Source of the DNA: Halopiger aswanensis
GTDB taxonomy: Archaea > Halobacteriota > Halobacteria > Halobacteriales > Natrialbaceae
Direction: 5' to 3'
NCBI RefSeq assembly: GCF_003610195.1
Contig: NZ_RAPO01000002.1
Coordinates: forward strand, 1 to 64,000
DNA length: 64,000 nucleotides
In this document: in pieces, positions 43,081 through 51,769 of the stretch
Position numbering within the stretch: position 1 is the first letter of the stretch
Layout of the letters: the number at the start of each line of letters is the position of its first letter
The notes under the pieces: generated by a model
The model's input: only the letters and a program-made list of their open reading frames with translations
What the model was told of the DNA's origin: nothing
Database searches by the model: none
Program-made: the position numbers and the translations under genes

Positions 43081-43734
43081 TTAACAGGACGTCGTCGTGT
43101 TCGTCTTGATCCCGCTGTCAGTAAACGAGACGACCGTCCGTGACTCCTCGCAGGGCGATCCCGATCGCGAGATCGACGACGTGTTTCTGACCCCGTCGGT
43201 CTCGAGCGTCGTCTCGTAGGTCCCCGGCTCGCCGATGATGATCTCGAGGGCCGTCTCGGCGGGCAGTTCGTTCGTCCCCTCGAGCACGGTCGTCTCGTCG
43301 CGATCGATCCGGATCGAGAGGTCGCGACCGCGATCCGATTCGTTCTCGATCGTGAGACGGTGATAGATGGTCTCGTCATCGATAGCTGCCGTCACGTCGG
43401 CAGCTTCCTCGTCGTCTGTCACGTTTTCGTCCTCGTCCTCATCCTCGTCCTCGTCCTCGTCTTCGGAGTCGTCGAGCACCGTCGTCGCAATCAGCACGAA
43501 CGGGTCAGTTTCGAGCGTCTCGAAGGTCAGTTCCGTGTCGTCCTCGAGCACGTTGTTCGCCTCGGTTTCAGTCTTGTTTTCAGCGTTTGCTCCGGTCTGT
43601 CCCGCTGTCTCCGTCGATTCGTTCCCCCCGGTATCGCCGCCGCCGTTCGACGAGTCATCAGCGGCACCGAGACAGCCTGCGAGGAGCCCGAGTCCGACGC
43701 CGGATGCGATCCGAACGAGCGTGCGACGGTCCAT
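43081..43734 (-). CDS. Predicted Tat lipoprotein with acidic linker
   Basis: 217 residues. Signal MDRRTLVRIASGVGLGLLAG with the lipobox Leu-Ala-Gly-Cys at Cys21 and twin Arg at 3-4: a Tat-exported lipoprotein. A disordered Gly/Glu/Asn part follows and an (ED)n run of about 14 residues encoded by repeated TCG-TCC triplets (about 43426-43465). The C-terminal 100 residues are strand-rich (IYHRLTIENESDRGRDLSIRID) and look like a small beta-sandwich. Function unknown. Confidence 0.7.
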   Translation of the reverse strand: MDRRTLVRIASGVGLGLLAGCLGAADDSSNGGGDTGGNESTETAGQTGANAENKTETEANNVLEDDTELTFETLETDPFVLIATTVLDDSEDEDEDEDEDEDENVTDDEEAADVTAAIDDETIYHRLTIENESDRGRDLSIRIDRDETTVLEGTNELPAETALEIIIGEPGTYETTLETDGVRNTSSISRSGSPCEESRTVVSFTDSGIKTNTTTSC

Positions 43735-44102
43735 ATTCGGTGGGGCCACATCGAGGGTCAAACCACTTTTTCATCGATCCGTGACCGTCAGTCCCGCCGA
43801 TACGCAGGACCGTTCGGTCCCGATTCATCGGTTCGGCTGTCTCGAGGCCCTGCTCTACGATCATCTGCGGACAACGTATTGGCACCCGTGAGAGACCGGT
43901 TCGGCGACCGTTTTGGGTCTCCTTACCGCACTGGCAGCCGGCTATCTTTCATCCGGGTCACATGACCGGACGGAGACCCGATCTGCGCGCAAAGTTTCGA
44001 CTACAGCGTCGCAATCGAGTGTTTGGCTTGCAAACGATAGCCCTCGTTTATTCCCGTTTCCAGTGAACGCCCGGTGCCCGTTGCGGGCAGATACACCTAC
44101 CC
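43735..44102. other. Intergenic stretch without genes
   Basis: 368 bases between the lipoprotein and the first exported protein of the fibre locus. The only element I can point to is TTTATT at about 44047-44052, which may serve the rightward gene with a leader of about 30 bases. No repeat or structured element stands out. Confidence 0.4.
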
Positions 44103-44450
44103 ATGTTTGGACGGAAGATCGGTCAGCGGCTACTCACAGTGATGGTCGTCGCCGGACTGCTGGCGATGACCGTCGGAATCGGCGCGGTAACAGCACAGGA
44201 AAGCGACGCGGTCGAAGAGTCGGTCGAGACCGGCGATGAAACCGAGAGCGTCTCGATCCAAAACGAGAGTACGCAAACGGTCGAGGAGAGCGTGACGGAG
44301 ACCGAAACGTCGTTCGCGACGGACGGAACCGACGACTCGTCTGACGGCGATGGCAGCATCGTCGACTTCGACGATGACTTCGCGAGCGGCGGCTTCGCCA
44401 CCGATATCGTCGATCAGACGCTCGGAAACGTCGGCAGCATGTTCGAATAA
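44103..44450 (+). CDS. Small acidic exported protein
   Basis: 115 residues. A Sec signal (about 1-31: RRLLTVMVVAGLLAMTVGIG-type core, cleavage after VTAQ) followed by a Glu/Thr/Ser stretch and an Asp-rich end with hydrophobic patches (FASGGFATDIVDQTLGNVGSMF). It shares the '...TAQE' cleavage context with the paralogues at 46854, 48338 and 49604. It is convergent with the repeat protein gene, which suggests membership of the same locus (inference). Confidence 0.65.
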   Translation: MFGRKIGQRLLTVMVVAGLLAMTVGIGAVTAQESDAVEESVETGDETESVSIQNESTQTVEESVTETETSFATDGTDDSSDGDGSIVDFDDDFASGGFATDIVDQTLGNVGSMFE

Positions 44451-44609
44451 CCGGTCTCGTTTCGATTCGTCTCGACGGGAACGCCCGTCGCAGTCCATTT
44501 TTCACGCTGTCGACCGACGCTCGCGGCTTCGGTCGTGCAACGGACGGCAAAAAACAGGATACCGAAAGAGGTGGATAGCTGATCGAACGACGATCGCGTA
44601 ACGGTTCAG

Positions 44610-46166
44610 TTACGCTGCAGTCCAGAGGTTCGTCGCGGCGACGGAACCGAACTGGATGTTCTCGTTCTCCTGCATGGTCACCTGTGCAGCGTCGGCGCTG
44701 TCACCGTTTTCGGCCACGGCGATGGCGGCCTGCTGCTCGTTGACGTTCTCCTGCGTGATGAACTGCACCTGGGCGAGCTGGGCGCTCGCGTGCTGCTGGG
44801 CGTCGTTCGTCTGCAGCGCGTCGGTGTCGTACGAGAGGCCTTCGATGCCGTCGACGTCTTCGCCGCCCACGGTCACGCTCGTGGTCGAAGTCACGACCGC
44901 GTTCTCGTACTGGTGGCTCGGGCCGGCGTAGACGTTCAGCGCGTCCGCGAAGCCGACCTGCGAGTTGATGTTGGACTGGTAGGCCAACTGGACGGCGGTG
45001 GCGTCGCTCTCGTTGGTCGCGAGCGCCAGCGCCGTGTTCTGCAGGTTGACGTTCATCTGTTCGGCGGTCTGGTTCTGGGCCACCTCGGAGGTCGCCGTCT
45101 GGACCTTCTCGCCGCTCTTCTTGTGGTGGTCTCCCTCCTTGTCGGCGAGCAGCGTCTCGACCGAGCGCTCGGTGTCGAGGACCTGGGTGTCGTCGTCGAG
45201 TCCCGCGGTCGCGACGTTCATGCCGCCGAGCGACTGGATGACGTTTTCGGCAGTCGCGCTGCCGAGCTGCTCGTTGAGGTTCGTCTGTTCCGTGATCTGG
45301 ATGGCGGTCGCGACGCTGCCGTTGCCGACGGCGATTGCGACGGCGCCGTCCTGCTGGTTGATGTTCTCCTGGGTGACCGCCTGACCCTGCTGGACCGCCG
45401 CCGACGCGGCCTGGTCCTCGAACTGGCCGTTACCCACGTAGACGTTCGTCGCGTTCGCAACGCCCCGCTGCAGGTTCTCGTTGGACTGCTGGGACTGCTG
45501 GAGGGCGGTCGCTTCGCTGTTGTTCTCCGCGATCGCGAACGCGATGTTCTGTTCGTTGTAGTTGAGCTGGCCGACTTCCTGGACCTGCGTCACTTCGGCT
45601 TCAGCCGTCTGGTCGGCGTCGTCGGCGTCGAGTGCCGCCTTATCGCCCTTCTTGTCGGCGATGCCCCAGCCGTCGAACGACTTGCCGTCGCCGTCGCCGA
45701 TGAGGATCGTGACCTCACCGACGTCCTCGAACTGCGTCTGGACCGCGTGGGCGCTGTCCGCGGCGACGTCAGCGTTCTGCTGGTTGTCGTTGTACTGCGA
45801 GGCCTCCTGCACCGCCGTGGCCTCGCCGCCGTCGATCGAGATCGACGTCGCGTTCTCCTGCTGGTTGATGTTGACCTGATCGACGTCCTGGTACTGCGAG
45901 ACCTCGACGTCGTTCAGCTCGTCGCCGGACGCGTGCGCGTCGATGTATTCCTCGAGGGTCATATCCCCGAGGTCGGCGCCGAAGACCAGGTACAGGCCTT
46001 CGTCGTCCTCGAGCACGTGGTGCGTGCCGGCGTTCGCGTTGCCCTCAGTCTCGGCTTCTTCGGCGGCGGCGGCCGCCGGTAGACCGACCGAGAGCATCGC
46101 TACGGCGACTATACATGCCATAAGAACCGTCGTACACTGTGAACGTATCGTCGTCGTGTTTGTCAT
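44610..46166 (-). CDS. Exported Q/N-ladder repeat protein (candidate amyloid fibre subunit)
   Basis: 518 residues with a Sec signal (about 1-35, ending AAAAAEE). Five modules, at about 87-140, 188-245, 254-312, 358-415 and 459-515, each contain two copies of Q-x3-Q-x-N-x-N-x-Q. All ten copies fit exactly: core Gln at 97, 124, 200, 227, 266, 294, 370, 397, 472 and 499, with 27-28 residues inside each module. Between them run AxAxA strands. Regular Gln/Asn ladders with alternating small residues are what curlin-type beta-solenoid amyloids show; this is not a canonical CsgA repeat. Membrane or matrix location is inferred. Confidence 0.75.
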   Translation of the reverse strand: MTNTTTIRSQCTTVLMACIVAVAMLSVGLPAAAAAEEAETEGNANAGTHHVLEDDEGLYLVFGADLGDMTLEEYIDAHASGDELNDVEVSQYQDVDQVNINQQENATSISIDGGEATAVQEASQYNDNQQNADVAADSAHAVQTQFEDVGEVTILIGDGDGKSFDGWGIADKKGDKAALDADDADQTAEAEVTQVQEVGQLNYNEQNIAFAIAENNSEATALQQSQQSNENLQRGVANATNVYVGNGQFEDQAASAAVQQGQAVTQENINQQDGAVAIAVGNGSVATAIQITEQTNLNEQLGSATAENVIQSLGGMNVATAGLDDDTQVLDTERSVETLLADKEGDHHKKSGEKVQTATSEVAQNQTAEQMNVNLQNTALALATNESDATAVQLAYQSNINSQVGFADALNVYAGPSHQYENAVVTSTTSVTVGGEDVDGIEGLSYDTDALQTNDAQQHASAQLAQVQFITQENVNEQQAAIAVAENGDSADAAQVTMQENENIQFGSVAATNLWTAA

Positions 46167-46235
46167 GATTCGTTTGACGTGAACCGTGAGAGTCTTCCTT
46201 TCTGTAACTCCACGGCGTAAACCGTCGTATCCCGA

Positions 46236-46257
46236 TGACAGACTTTGTTATCTGTCA
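46236..46257 (-). promoter_or_regulatory. Inverted repeat upstream of the Q/N-ladder gene
   Basis: TGACAGA (46236-46242) and TCTGTCA (46251-46257) are perfect inverted copies with an 8-base spacer. They lie 70-91 bases before the start of the repeat-protein gene, upstream of a possible TATA region, where haloarchaeal activators or repressors bind. It is not repeated elsewhere in the locus. The rest of 46258-46636 shows nothing I can name. Confidence 0.45.
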
Positions 46258-46636
46258 GTTTCGGCAAATATGAAGCGACCTACCGTCTCGAAGGCCGATA
46301 CTTACGGCGAGAAACGGGTTGCTTCGCTTGCAGGCGGTTCGATCTGATGGTGTGCTAACGCACCTCAGTCGCTAGTCAGCCGTCACTGGCGCTCTCGAGG
46401 CCTCGAAATCGCCGGCTACGTATCGAAAGGAGTGACTGTTTCACGGGACAAAGGCCGAGGTTACCGGAAACTGCTCCCAAACCGCCGCGGGTCATACTCG
46501 GTATTTCGGGGACGGCGCCGCGTAATTCTGTTGGCACAACGAGGAGCGAACAGTTTGCTAAGCCAATTGTATCGATCGGAGTGTACGGTTGCGGTGAGTA
46601 AAAGCAAAACCAACAGATTGAGATTGATGGTTCCAG

Positions 46637-46853
46637 CGCTTCTAATGCGAGTCTTCCCCTGAAACTGTGGTCCGGGTTGAAGTAGAACTCCGTGATGAGC
46701 AGCGATTGGGCAACGCGTCACAGCGGGGATGCGTCGGGAGTCGGTTGGTACCTCCCGCGACGAGCGGCGGTCTCGCGGTATGGGGTCGACGTTCCGTTGC
46801 GGAGCTGGTACTCCCGTGTGATGCGTGCCTCGTAAACAGCTAAAAACTCAACT
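46637..46853 (+). repeat. Conserved leader, copy 1 (fibre paralogue unit)
   Basis: Starts around CTTCTAATGCGAGT and, from CCCTGAAACTG (46657), runs nearly unchanged to the ATG at 46854. The same leader precedes the genes at 48338 and 49604. It contains a conserved hairpin CGTCGGGAG...CTCCC-GC-GACG and ends with an AT-rich box (CGTAAACAG). Its length and conservation are unusual for haloarchaea, whose messages are mostly leaderless. Confidence 0.75.
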
Positions 46854-47438
46854 ATGAAGCGCGCACTCGCAATCACACTGACGGTAGCAATCTTCGGCGC
46901 CCTTGCAGTCATGGGGGCGACCGGAGCGGTTATGGCACAGGAAGACGGAAACGCGACGAACGTCTCCGATCTCATCGACCAGACTCAGGACGTCGACGCG
47001 GATCAGGACCTCGAGTCGGGTGACGCGAACGTCGACGTGAATGTCGACCAGACGAACAACAACGCGCAGACGGCCAGCGCGACGTCCGGTGACGCGGTCG
47101 CTGGTAGCTCCGGTGGCGGTGCCGGTGCCGCGGCCGCTGCGGACCACTACAAGGGCGGCGGTGGCGCTGTCGCTACTGATGCCGGCGCCAGTACTGGTTC
47201 GACGGCGTTCTCCACCGCTGAAGTCGCTCAGAACCAGGACGTCGATCAGACCAACGCTGCGCAGGTCGACGCTACTGCCGACACCAGCATTGAGGCTGAG
47301 CAGAACGTCGAACCCGAGCAAGAGGCTGACGTCGAAGACAACACGTTCAACGAGCCCGGTGACGACCTCGACGAGGACACTCTGGCAAGCATCGACGCTA
47401 ACCTGCAGGAACTCGTCGACGAGTTCGTCAGTTCCTAA
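46854..47438 (+). CDS. Exported Q/N-motif protein, paralogue 1
   Basis: 194 residues. Sec signal MKRALAITLTVAIFGALAVM...VMAQ (cleavage after 29). The mature part has Q66-x-N68-x-N70-x-Q72, a Gly/Ala-rich segment (84-110), Q128-x3-Q132-x-N134 in EVAQNQDVDQTN, and an acidic C-terminus with a short helix. EVAQNQ also occurs in the 518-residue repeat protein (361-366), so both belong to one sequence group. It is 80-90 percent identical by eye to paralogue 3. The role of a minor or nucleating subunit is inferred. Confidence 0.72.
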   Translation: MKRALAITLTVAIFGALAVMGATGAVMAQEDGNATNVSDLIDQTQDVDADQDLESGDANVDVNVDQTNNNAQTASATSGDAVAGSSGGGAGAAAAADHYKGGGGAVATDAGASTGSTAFSTAEVAQNQDVDQTNAAQVDATADTSIEAEQNVEPEQEADVEDNTFNEPGDDLDEDTLASIDANLQELVDEFVSS

Positions 47439-47456
47439 TTCAGTATATACTGAATT
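47437..47456 (+). terminator. 20-bp perfect palindrome at the stop of paralogue 1
   Basis: AATTCAGTATATACTGAATT is its own reverse complement and begins inside the TAA stop codon (47436-47438). In RNA it can form a 10-bp or looped stem at the 3' end of the message. Paralogues 2 and 3 do not have it. It may be a terminator or stabiliser, or a site for a DNA-binding protein. Confidence 0.45.
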
Positions 47457-47486
47457 TAATTCGCCTACCTACTTTTATTGCGCCAA

Positions 47487-48075
47487 TTATAGCGCGTCAA
47501 CTGCTGTTGTTTCTGCCTGGATAATCACGTCTCGAATCGCCAAATTAGCCTCTCGAGCCACGGCCTTCGCGTCTTCGTACTCGACACTGACATCGTAGAC
47601 CTCGCCGTCGACGTCGCTCGCGATTTTCACGGTCACTTCGTAGGTCTCGCCGTCGATTTCGAGATCGACCGTTATCGAACACCCGCTGTACAATCCACCG
47701 ATGCGTCCCCCACATCCTGCACTCCTAACGTCCTCGTCTCCTCAAGCATTACCAGTCATACGTCGAGCGACGCGCTGCCGATCCTCGGGCTTGCAGATGA
47801 CCTTCACGAGGTGGCCCGGGCGGTACTTCTTCATCGTCGCCGGGAGAACGAAACGTCACGCGCGTCCGCGAGCGTCTCCGGCAGATCGCCAGCATCCCCG
47901 GCGTCGCGTCGTCAAGATTCGTCTCGAGGACGGCGATGTCGTTTTTCACGAGCGACCTGTCGCCCTCGCCGACCAGCACCCGGAACACGTTCGGATGCGG
48001 ATCGAGGTCGTAGCCGCCGGCGCCGTAGCCCGACGCCGCGACCTCGAGCGCCCCGGTCGCCGTCTCGATCGAAGG
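47487..48075 (-). pseudogene. larC: larC 3' remnant A
   Basis: Matches about 50291-50870 of the intact larC along its length. The last 66 codons are still open (SITVDLEIDGETYEVTVKIA... ending DVIIQAETTAVDAL), but upstream of 47690 the frame is broken by small insertions and deletions, so it cannot encode the enzyme. It carries the 3' third of the gene only. It is the trailing part of a duplicated unit. Confidence 0.85.
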
Positions 48076-48131
48076 TGTAGCGTTAGGAACGATGAAATAT
48101 TCATGGGTGGAAACGGATCAACGGTTGTAGT

Positions 48132-48337
48132 GGTTCTAATACGAGTATTGCCCTGAAACTGTAGTCCGGGTTGAAGTAGGACTCCGTGATGAGCAGCGAC
48201 TGGGCAACGCGTCACAGCGGGGATGCGTCGGGAGTCGGTTGGTACCTCCCGCGACGAGCCGCGGCCCCGCCGAACGGGGTCAACGTTCCGTTGTGGAGCG
48301 GTACCCCCGTGTGGTGTATGCCTTATAAACATCAACT
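48132..48337 (+). repeat. Conserved leader, copy 2
   Basis: Second copy of the leader, from GGTTCTAATACGAG to the ATG at 48338, with a few substitutions and a 10-15 base deletion just before the start (TTATAAACATCAACT instead of the longer A-rich spacer). The stem CGTCGGGAG/CTCCCGCGACG is kept. The junction with the larC remnant (48072-48131) matches that of copy 3. Confidence 0.75.
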
Positions 48338-48664
48338 ATGAAGCGCGCACTCGCAATTACATTGACGGTAGCGATCTTCGGCGCCCTCGCAGTCATGGGG
48401 GCCACCGGAGCAGTTGTGGCACAGGAGACGGCGTTCTCCACCGCTGAGGTCGCGCAGAACCAGGACGTCGATCAGACCAACGTTGCTGACGTCGACGCTA
48501 CTGCCGACACCAGCATCGACGCCGAGCAGACCGTCGAACCCGAACAGGAGGCTGACGTCGAAGACAACACGTTCAACGAGCCCGGTGACGACCTCGAGGA
48601 GGAGACGCTGGCAAACATTGACGCTAACATAGAGGAACTCCTCGATATCATCCGTAACGGTTAG
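48338..48664 (+). CDS. Exported Q/N-motif protein, paralogue 2 (shortened)
   Basis: 108 residues. The signal peptide is almost identical to those of paralogues 1 and 3, but Gln29-Glu30 is joined directly to TAFSTAEVAQNQDVDQTN; the first Q/N motif and the Gly-rich segment (about 86 residues) are missing as one in-frame deletion. The acidic C-terminus is retained and ends earlier. It may still be made and exported, possibly as a capping variant, or may be decaying. Confidence 0.65.
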   Translation: MKRALAITLTVAIFGALAVMGATGAVVAQETAFSTAEVAQNQDVDQTNVADVDATADTSIDAEQTVEPEQEADVEDNTFNEPGDDLEEETLANIDANIEELLDIIRNG

Positions 48665-48758
48665 TGGCTAATAACGGGGTGGGATTCATTTATCCACTCT
48701 TATTACACTAAAAATTACGAACAGTAGCAACTGTTCGCCCAAATATTGGTTTGAGAAA

Positions 48759-49322
48759 TCACAGTATCCCAACTGCTGCCGTTTCTGCCTGGCAGATTAC
48801 ATCTTGGATTGCCAAGTCAGTCTCTTGAGCCACGGCCTTCGCGTCCTCGTACTCGGTATTGATGTCGTAACCTCGGCTCCGCTCGCGATTTTCACGGGTG
48901 CCTCGTACGTCTCTCCTCGAGTTTCAACTCCATCGTCTCGAACTCCCGCTATGTAATCCACTGATGTGTCACTCCCAGATCCCGCCCCCAACGTCCCGGT
49001 CTCCTCGGTGTGCGCTCGAGCGACGCGCTGCAGTCTTCGAGCTTGGAAGTGACCCTCACGAGGTAGCCCGAGCGGGACCTCTTTTTATCACTACAGGATG
49101 GATGTCACGCGCGCTCGCATCCGAGAACGCCTCCAGGCGCCCAGTACCTCCGCACCGCGCCATCGAGGTTCGGTTCGAGGACGGCAACGTCGTCCTTCAT
49201 GAGTATCCTCTCCTCGGCTGACGAGCGCCGGGAGTACGTTCGAGTGTGGATCGAGGCCGTCGCCCCGGCGCCGTAGCTAGATACCTCGAACTCAAGCGCA
49301 GGGAGTTCGCCGGCTCGATCAA
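48759..49322 (-). pseudogene. larC: larC 3' remnant B
   Basis: Aligns with the 3' third of larC (about 50291-50890) but is more eroded than remnant A: many substitutions, several frame breaks and a run of missing bases near 48870. It ends at the same sequence junction as remnant A (CTCGATC-AAAG-TGTAGC), so both copies descend from a unit that already carried this junction. Confidence 0.8.
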
Positions 49323-49381
49323 AGATGTAGCATTAGGAACAATAAAATTTCCCATCAAAGGTAACAGATCAACAGCTGTAG

Positions 49382-49603
49382 CACTCCTAGGTCACGTATA
49401 TCCCTGAAACTGTGGTCCGGGTTGAAGTAGGACTCCGTGATGAGCAGCGACTGGGCAACGCGTCACAGCGGGAATGCGTCGGGAGTCGGTTGGGACCTCC
49501 CGTGACGAGCGGCGACCCCACCGAACGGGGCCGACGTTCCGTTACGGAGCTGGTACCCCCGTGTGATGCGTGCCTCATAAACAGCAACAGCAAACACTCA
49601 ACT
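49382..49603 (+). repeat. Conserved leader, copy 3
   Basis: Third copy of the leader, from CTCCTAGGTCACG to the ATG at 49604, with CCCTGAAACTGTGGTCCGG at 49402 onward. It has the longest spacer between CATAAACAG and ATG (about 26 bases). It precedes the copy next to intact larC and is probably closest to the ancestral arrangement. Confidence 0.75.
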
Positions 49604-50209
49604 ATGAAGCGCGCACTCGCGATTACACTGACGGTAGCAATCTTCGGCGCCCTCGCAGTCATGGGGGCGACCGGAGCGGTTATGGCACAGGAAGACGGAA
49701 ACGAGACGAACGTCACCGACCTCATCAACCAGGCCCAAGATGTCGATGCGGATCAGGACATCGAGTCGGGCGACGCGAACGTCGACGTGAGCGTTGACCA
49801 GACGAACAACAACGCGCAGACGGCCAGCGCGACGTCCGGTGACGCGTTCGCCGCTGACGGCTCCGGTGGCGGTGCTGGCGCTGCGGCCACTTCGGATCAC
49901 GCCAAGCAGAAGGGTGGCGGCGCTGCGGCTGCCGCTGACGGTGGCGGCGCTGGTGCGACGGCGTTCTCCACCGCTGAGGTCGCGCAGAACCAAGACGTCG
50001 ATCAGACCAACGCTGCTGACGTCGACGCTACTGCCGACACCAGCATTGACGCCAACCAGACCGTCGAACCCGAGCAGGAGGCTGACGTCGAAGACAATAC
50101 GTTCAACGAGCCCGGTGACGACCTCGACGAAGACACTCTGGCAAACATCGACGCTAACCTGGAGGAACTCCTCGATATCTTCGACGGGAGTGTAGTGTCT
50201 AACAGCTAG
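49604..50209 (+). CDS. Exported Q/N-motif protein, paralogue 3
   Basis: 201 residues, close to paralogue 1: the same signal peptide to VMAQ, Q-x-N-x-N-x-Q in VDQTNNNAQTA, a Gly/Ala/Lys segment slightly different in sequence (KQKGGGAAAAADGGG), EVAQNQDVDQTN, and the acidic tail NEPGDDLDEDTLANID ending in a short helix. It converges on intact larC, 81 bases from its stop. The identity of the mature N-terminal half with paralogue 1 despite decay of the larC copies suggests selection or gene conversion. Confidence 0.72.
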   Translation: MKRALAITLTVAIFGALAVMGATGAVMAQEDGNETNVTDLINQAQDVDADQDIESGDANVDVSVDQTNNNAQTASATSGDAFAADGSGGGAGAAATSDHAKQKGGGAAAAADGGGAGATAFSTAEVAQNQDVDQTNAADVDATADTSIDANQTVEPEQEADVEDNTFNEPGDDLDEDTLANIDANLEELLDIFDGSVVSNS

Positions 50210-50290: not shown

Positions 50291-51652
50291 TTACAGTACC
50301 CCAACTGCTGCCGTTTCTGTCTGGATGATTACATCCCGAATCGCCAAGCCAGTCTCTCGAGCAACGGTCTTCGCGTCGTCGTACTCGGCACTGACGTCGT
50401 AGACCTCGCCGTCGGAATCCCTCGCGATTTTCACGGTGACCTCATACGTCTCGCCGTTAAGTTCCAACTCCACCGTCTCGAACTCCCGTTTGGCAATCCA
50501 CCGATGCGTCGCTCCCGCATCCCGCACCCCTAACGTCCCCGTCTCCTCGGCGAGCGCTCGAGCGACGCGCTGCCGATCTTCGGGTTTGCAGATGACCTTC
50601 ACCAGATGCCCCGGCCGGGATTTCTTCATCGTCGCCGGCAGAATCGAAACGTCACGTGCGCCCGCGTCCACGAGGGTTTCTTGCAGTCCGCCCAGGACCT
50701 CCGGCGTCGCGTCGTCCAAGTTCGTCTCGAGGACGGCGATATCGTCTTTCACGAGCGACCCCTCACCTTTCCCGACCAGCGCCCGGAGCACGTTCGGGTG
50801 CGGATCGAGGTCGTAGCCGCCGGCGCCGTAGCCCGACGCCTCGAGCTCGAGCGAGGGGAGTTCCTCGACGCCGTCGGCGAAGTGCGCGAGGATCGCCGCG
50901 CCGGTCGGGGTCAGGAGTTCGCGGTCGACGGGGCCGCCGCGCAGCGACCAGTCCGCGTTTTGGGCGATCTCGACCACCGCGGGCGTGGGGACGGGGTACT
51001 CGCCGTGGCTCATCCCGACGGTGCCGCCGCCGGTCGCCAGCGGCGTCGTGACGATGCGATCGGGCTCGAGGTCGTTGACTAACGCCGCCGCGCCGACGAT
51101 GTCCGCGATCGCGTCGTCGGCTCCGACCTCGTGGAAGTGAATGTCCTCGAGCGACTCGCCGTGGACGCTGGCCTCGGCCTCGCCGAGACGCTTAAAGATC
51201 GCGAGCGCGTCGTCTTCGACGGCAGCGGGGAGGTCCATCTCCGCGACGATGTCACGGACTTCCTGATAACTGCGGTGTGGCCCGTGGCCTTCGGCGTGGA
51301 CGTGGTCGTGGTTGTGATCGTGCTCATGGTCGTCGTCCGCGTGGTCGTGCCCGTGATCGCCGTGATCCTCGTGACTATGATCGTGACCGCGGTCGTGATC
51401 GTGTCCGTGTCCGTGTTCGTGTCCCTGGCCGCTCGAGTCGCCGTCGCCGGTCAGCAGCACGTCGACCGTCGTCGACGCGATCCCGCACTTGACCGTCTCG
51501 TCGATCCGGTACTCGAGTTCGAGCGCGGCTTCGACCGGCTCGAGGGCGTCGGGGTCGGCCCCGGCGTCGAGCAGCGCGGCGAGGAGCATGTCGCCGCTGG
51601 CACCCATCCGGCCGTCGAACGCGAGGACGTTCGCGCCAGTGTTCGTGGTCAT
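50291..51652 (-). CDS. larC: Nickel-pincer cofactor synthesis protein LarC
   Basis: 453 residues. LarC (DUF111) inserts nickel into the lactate-racemase pincer cofactor with CTP. N-terminal block VLAFDGRMGASGDMLLAALLDAG, metal-site region GADDAIADIVGAAAL and GGGTVGMSHGEYPVPTPAV, and C-terminal ETNLDDATPEVLGGL and GVRDAGATHRW. A linker (78-126) carries about 20 histidines alternating with Asp/Gly, likely nickel storage. larA and larB are not in the window. The start at 51652 removes a 20-residue extension. Confidence 0.93.
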   Translation of the reverse strand: MTTNTGANVLAFDGRMGASGDMLLAALLDAGADPDALEPVEAALELEYRIDETVKCGIASTTVDVLLTGDGDSSGQGHEHGHGHDHDRGHDHSHEDHGDHGHDHADDDHEHDHNHDHVHAEGHGPHRSYQEVRDIVAEMDLPAAVEDDALAIFKRLGEAEASVHGESLEDIHFHEVGADDAIADIVGAAALVNDLEPDRIVTTPLATGGGTVGMSHGEYPVPTPAVVEIAQNADWSLRGGPVDRELLTPTGAAILAHFADGVEELPSLELEASGYGAGGYDLDPHPNVLRALVGKGEGSLVKDDIAVLETNLDDATPEVLGGLQETLVDAGARDVSILPATMKKSRPGHLVKVICKPEDRQRVARALAEETGTLGVRDAGATHRWIAKREFETVELELNGETYEVTVKIARDSDGEVYDVSAEYDDAKTVARETGLAIRDVIIQTETAAVGVL

Positions 51653-51769
51653 ACGTACGCCGGGGAGGTGAACGGCAAAAAAGCCATCTGCTCGCCGATC
51701 CGGTCCCGCCAAAACCGTCCGATGCCGTCACATCTATGTAGTCACCTCCCTAAGTCAGATGTGGTAGCA

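Follow-up and report, generated by a model that had tools for sequence, protein, structure and literature searches.

A conserved haloarchaeal family of secreted Gln/Asn-repeat proteins, with small proteins of the same module, at a locus of Halopiger aswanensis

Results

Genes and Repeat Units at the Locus
The locus lies within the first 64,000 nucleotides of contig NZ_RAPO01000002.1 of the haloarchaeon Halopiger aswanensis (assembly GCF_003610195.1), hereafter the window, and encodes one large and three small secreted proteins with a common glutamine/asparagine (Gln/Asn) patterned module. It represents a new and conserved haloarchaeal secreted repeat system, a conclusion that is well supported, while fibre formation by this system is about an even bet. 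An initial annotation, made from the sequence alone, had proposed a curli-like extracellular fibre locus, and the open reading frames were confirmed where it had placed them. The large gene, its repeat units (with the expect value, E, of the unit profile) and the small genes, with their signals of the general secretory (Sec) type, are as follows.

44610..46166, minus strand: large five-unit secreted protein, 518 amino acids (aa); motif count, alignment of 25-48 homologues, AlphaFold2 model
45747..45914, minus strand: strand-turn-strand unit 1; E = 2.3e-18
45438..45605, minus strand: strand-turn-strand unit 2; E = 1.4e-20
45237..45407, minus strand: strand-turn-strand unit 3; E = 1.9e-19
44928..45095, minus strand: strand-turn-strand unit 4; E = 5.1e-19
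44622..44789, minus strand: strand-turn-strand unit 5; E = 5.9e-19
46854..47438, plus strand: small secreted protein 1, 194 aa; Sec-like signal followed by a B-type strand, a Gly/Ala-rich linker and an A-type strand; E = 0.5 (strand A)
48338..48664, plus strand: small secreted protein 2, 108 aa; signal like that of copy 1, A-type strand, without the B strand and linker; E = 0.07
49604..50209, plus strand: small secreted protein 3, 201 aa; behind a Sec-like signal, a B strand joined by a linker to an A strand; E = 0.6

The large protein contained exactly ten QxNxNxQ motifs, at residues 97/124, 200/227, 266/294, 370/397, and 472/499, compared with a mean of 0.07 and a maximum of 2 in 2000 shuffles of its composition, which bears out the ten Gln/Asn half-repeats first reported for it. 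Because the motifs are paired 27-28 residues apart, the true repeat unit is the pair, a strand-turn-strand element of about 56 residues present five times per large protein, with the consensus AxAxVxQxQxVxQxNxNxQxxAxAIAx(D)GSxATAxQxxxQxNxNxQxGxAxAxNVx. Linkers between units were of very variable length. All 80 of the 80 distinct large homologues had exactly five units each by the unit profile, and the Gln and Asn residues were invariant or nearly so in all five units of 48 sequences, the most distant of which were 37% identical to the window protein. An N-terminal LYLVFGADL block was conserved ahead of the units in both major clades; the family is defined here by such a block together with five units, both of which were found in the window protein. 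The ratio of nonsynonymous to synonymous substitution rates (dN/dS) was 0.24-0.25 between the large gene and those of two relatives, and 0.21-0.39 over all gene pairs tested, large and small. The repeats represent a selected structure rather than sequence of low complexity.

The Module in the Small Proteins
Run against the complete genome (4.87 Mb), the unit profile recovered all five large-protein units at E 1e-18 to 1e-20, and the only further matches at E ≤ 10 were the three small genes, individually weak (E 0.07, 0.5, and 0.6). Strand A of 48338 scored 13.3 bits and strand B of 49604 scored 13.2 bits, each above 200 of 200 shuffles; the strand matches of 46854 were not distinct from shuffles. 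The motif thought to be common to large and small proteins held up for EVAQNQ, present in all four, and in part for QxNxNxQ, which occurred in 46854 and 49604 and was absent from 48338 because the region with that strand had been lost in frame. The three small genes were divergent from the large gene. Sec-like N-terminal signals were recognised by inspection on the large and all three small proteins, the export of which is predicted.

Comparison with relatives tied the small genes to the large one. A small gene, recognised by a Sec-like signal, Gln/Asn content and Q.[QN] motifs, lay divergently upstream in 39 of the 43 Sec-type loci with enough flanking sequence, usually at 0.5-0.9 kb from the large gene, and in 0 of the 15 loci of the twin-arginine translocation (Tat) type. 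Haloterrigena (L091), Halegenticoccus (L116), and Haladaptatus (L114) had small proteins consisting of a single complete unit. In Haladaptatus salinisoli (L136:7902-9858), five small secreted proteins were encoded in tandem on one DNA strand; four of them contained the complete unit and the other only one of its beta strands, and together they offer an attractive minimal system for structural work. In relatives, the strand-profile scores of small proteins were far above those of shuffles. Alignment of the large-protein unit with the single-unit small proteins gave the invariant positions Q7, Q9, Q13, N15, Q19, Q40, N42, N44, and Q46. Many Natrialbaceae, including the window, had a permuted order, in which a B-type strand was followed by a Gly- or charge-rich linker and an A-type strand. 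In the order, with 293 genomes covered, every genome with a short match also held the large protein; since both profiles were built from the large protein, divergent small proteins are undercounted in this figure. Near-perfect charged repeats, DDRKHADDKK and NDNGENDNGEN, were inserted in some small proteins (L070:4941-5486; L050:9586-10320). Such insertions suggest that linkers or tails expand freely.

Tandem Duplication of the Small Genes
Each small gene of the window lay in a tandemly duplicated block of 1.2-1.5 kb, in which it was preceded by about 200 bp of upstream DNA and accompanied by the 3′ end of the neighbouring larC; one intact and two decayed versions of larC were present.

50291..51712, minus strand: intact larC-type nickel-insertion gene, flanking and outside the system; PF01969, E = 2.6e-134
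47498..48050, minus strand: decayed larC 3′ fragment taken along in the tandem duplication; identity to the 3′ part of larC 82%
48761..49308, minus strand: second decayed larC 3′ fragment, likewise taken along in the duplication; identity to the 3′ part of larC 77%

The two fragments between the small genes mark successive tandem duplications. The nearly identical Sec signals of the small proteins, put forward earlier as support for a common system, are indeed present; as the copies share a recent duplication origin, this identity is not independent evidence. The larC pieces decayed while the small genes kept open frames, with dN/dS between copies of 0.21-0.30 (0.30 for 46854 against copy 3, 49604, and 0.21 for 48338), and judged by these substitution patterns the copies are maintained by selection. 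Gene 48338 was constrained despite the loss of a strand and the linker; a one-strand version may be useful.

Distribution and Clades
The profile search across archaea proposed at the outset did recover a family spread over haloarchaea, with a repeat unit of about 56 and not 27 residues. The large protein was encoded in 29 of 61 genomes of relatives, all in the family of the window, and in 62 of the 293 genomes of the order, in three families only. Among bacteria and archaea, scanned at one genome per species, 64 loci were found, all of them haloarchaeal and mostly from Natrialbaceae, with others from Haladaptatus and Halomicrococcus (Haladaptataceae) and Halegenticoccus; the scan relied on peptide patterns and may have overlooked distant relatives. 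The unit profile matched only the window's family in a 345-genome sample of the phylum, and neither this sample nor the species-level scan contained a relative of the unit outside haloarchaea.

In the tree, a main Sec-type clade, which included the window protein with Salinadaptatus and Halopiger as neighbours, was separated from a clade that was mostly of Tat type, with a twin-arginine (RR) signal. The Tat-type sister clade (L117, L119-L128, L130, L132, L133, and L135) often had charged C-terminal tails and had no linked small genes, and some genomes held several of its copies, with up to 8 matches in G174. The Pfam PGF-CTERM domain was found on 4 of 48 large homologues; the window protein and most others were without this ending, which consists of a C-terminal PGF motif, a transmembrane segment and a basic end. 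PGF-CTERM ends or a PGL variant followed charged spacers in L105, L108-L113, L129, L054, L057, and L058. Since PGF/PGL endings were scattered over the tree and absent in relatives, the anchor was gained or lost more than once. Relatives on plasmid records were annotated as hypothetical or PGF-CTERM proteins.

Structure Prediction and Fold Searches
An AlphaFold2 model of the large protein, made with 48 homologues, had one strand of 25-30 residues for each of the ten motifs, with turns of three to four residues joining the strands in pairs, which gives five strand-turn-strand units in place of the stacked solenoid of 27-residue coils imagined at first. The predicted local distance difference test score (pLDDT) was >90 in much of the repeats and low in the linkers and N-terminus. 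For the full model, the top three PDB matches were FapC, CsgA, and again FapC (E 0.33-1.7, non-significant), and for a two-unit segment they were FapC and E. coli CsgA, then parallel beta-helices (E 0.07-10, non-significant). With such poor E-values and template modelling scores (TM-scores) ≤0.22, the resemblance to FapC and CsgA is a hint and not evidence. The viral structure libraries gave no significant fold match. Coevolution, used to tell parallel from antiparallel strand pairing, gave a mixed signal in a set of 151 non-redundant units (effective number 76) too shallow to be informative.

No described family was matched by the large or small proteins, and no paper on a haloarchaeal curli-like or Natrialbaceae amyloid family was found in a literature search that left most subscription journals and preprints outside, in agreement with the earlier statement that no described haloarchaeal system of the kind was known. 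Weak Pfam/NCBIfam matches of small proteins, such as that to the SpaH pilin (E = 0.00026; 19.9 bits against a cut-off of 95), were rejected as compositional or signal-peptide chance, and a PDB match to the phoQ sensor (E = 0.015), covering a single strand, was likewise attributed to chance.

Gene Neighbourhood
On one side, the locus was bordered by larC, a gene for a Cdc48-type ATPase, and a gene for an EMC3-like membrane protein, and on the other by a RadB-like gene and a Bat/HTH_10 regulator; larC and Cdc48 flanked the locus in most relatives. One further exported protein had been counted into the locus.

44103..44450, plus strand: small acidic exported protein, doubtful member; no unit match, homologues near the large gene in a subset only

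The grouping of five exported proteins into one locus therefore holds for the large and three small proteins and is doubtful for 44103-44450, which was without the motif and patchily conserved. A lipobox-bearing, twin-arginine-like protein was encoded at 43081-43761, and in some genera its homologues lay close to the large gene.

Discussion

Possible Mechanism and Alternatives
These genes may belong to a surface system of archaea in which units with Gln/Asn ladders stack and which probably assembles extracellularly, probably into a cross-beta fibre or mat, a reading for and against which the chances are held to be equal. The large protein would cross the membrane by Sec, or by Tat in the sister clade, and outside the cell would fold into five strand-turn-strand units. 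Conserved Gln, Asn, Ala, and Val on one face would stack as ladders and the units would pile up, perhaps in parallel, with the PGF-CTERM anchor tethering the large protein in some relatives. The small proteins, whether they have one unit, its two strands permuted, or a single strand, would most likely come into contact with the large protein by adding to, capping or extending its exposed edges, and the whole would polymerise into an extracellular assembly on the cell surface or within the matrix, perhaps with a role in matrix formation or adhesion. A possible, more tentative extension is a fibre system that evolved independently in archaea. The five-unit protein, anchored in some species, would then be a pre-stacked template on which the single-unit, permuted or half-unit secreted proteins would polymerise edge to edge. 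A dedicated secretion channel would not be needed in such a template system because there is no outer membrane to cross.

In favour of assembly stand the ten motifs, the constant five units, the module common to large and small proteins, the linkage of their genes, purifying selection, the long predicted strands, the PGF-CTERM ends and, though non-significant, the FapC and CsgA fibrils as best fold matches. Several results weigh against assembly of this kind. The window's own small proteins matched the unit weakly, and the conserved neighbourhood of larC, Cdc48, and RadB-like flanks held no export or assembly gene. The predicted template modelling score (pTM) of the full AlphaFold2 model was 0.54, and a 131-residue two-unit segment reached a pLDDT of only 67, below that of the repeats in the full protein, and a pTM of 0.43. 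There was no significant fold match in PDB (best E 0.33 and 0.07; TM-scores 0.04-0.22), and the modelled strands could equally form antiparallel hairpins or parallel stacked arches like those of CsgA and FapC. Moreover, Tat export, as in the sister clade, normally means folding before export.

The last point would suit a non-polymerising surface or secreted beta-repeat protein, whose flat Gln/Asn face would bind a polysaccharide, a mineral, a salt surface or another cell, the small proteins being separate binders with the same module. Such a binder, here considered rather unlikely, is also consistent with PGF-CTERM anchoring, which like Tat export fits a cell-attached folded protein, and with an ice-binding beta-solenoid among the non-significant fold matches. 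The five units of every member are equally compatible with a finished monomer and with a fibre subunit, but FapC also has a fixed unit number (three) and yet forms fibres (PMC12822426), and a binder leaves unexplained the upkeep of adjoining single- or half-unit versions with the same core residues. It is improbable that a recognition or competition system, such as kin discrimination or a secreted peptide antimicrobial, has its diversifying component in the small genes and its receptor or scaffold in the large protein. The small proteins are secreted, variable in number, duplicated in the window and strongly different between genera, as such a system would have it; the dN/dS of 0.21-0.39 nevertheless indicates constraint and not diversifying selection, their core residues match those of the large protein, and no conserved immunity or processing gene was seen near the locus.

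The locus is almost certainly not a true member of the curli system, even though it has in common with it a Gln/Asn ladder, imperfect repeats, large and small subunits and Sec export. The curlin domain (PF07012) had no match in the window genome or in query proteins P0001-P0005, nor at E ≤ 1 among the matches listed for 48 large homologues, and CsgG (PF03783) had none in the window genome, while the controls were positive. Alignment to the E. coli Csg repeats with hhalign gave a probability of 0.5% over six columns. Curlin-type spacing was at chance (QxGxxN, one against 0.37 expected; QX10Q, 7 against 6.0 expected), and the unit has about 56 residues against 22-23 in curli. What stands of the curli-like label is therefore the analogy of a shared Gln/Asn module.

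Should the proteins polymerise, Gln/Asn-ladder fibres would have arisen here independently of curli and Fap and would work in saturated salt with no export channel, which would show what is essential to a functional amyloid. If they do not, they still form a widespread, undescribed surface-protein family of Natrialbaceae.

Comparison With Known Systems
Like curli (CsgA/CsgB), the proteins are predicted to be secreted and have imperfect, Gln/Asn-patterned strand-turn-strand repeats, with major and minor subunits that have a common module. The comparison is one of analogy only, since the curli repeat is patterned as N-x-psi-x-psi-x-Q (X6-Q-X-G-X2-N-X10) in contrast to the two QxNxNxQ strands per unit found here, and the unit number of CsgA varies widely (PMC10192328; PMC3521004) whereas it is fixed at five in the present family. 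A 2012 survey contained one unnamed archaeal protein with curli-like repeats, which may or may not belong to this family (PMC3521004). The archaeal sheath amyloids (Methanospirillum SH/MspA and Methanosaeta MspA) are also extracellular, beta-rich and repetitive, with conserved G, A, N, and Q (PMC6242892; PMC10593813), but have two repeats of about 80 residues and form tubular sheaths of methanogens. With the archaeosortase-dependent PGF-CTERM surface proteins, some large members have in common the PGF-CTERM end after a charged spacer.

Putative amyloid has been stained before in haloarchaeal biofilm, the protein not being firmly identified: the biofilm matrix of Haloferax volcanii was positive with Congo red and thioflavin T and was regarded as containing putative amyloid (PMC4180959). 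The species-level scan gave no Haloferax locus and the family is therefore no candidate for that material; it does provide named, widely conserved candidate genes in other haloarchaea.

In style, and by an analogy that does not imply homology, the system is nearest to Fap (FapC/FapB). No FapC chain in PDB was matched by query P0001 or profile A3, and none of the fapA-F genes was recognised adjoining the locus, no genome-wide search having been made; in addition, FapB has three repeats, in contrast to the single-unit small proteins described here. The two have in common repeats that are long, imperfect and separated by flexible linkers, conservation of Asn/Gln residues of the hydrogen-bonding kind, and a near-constant unit number, three in Fap and five here (PMC12822426).

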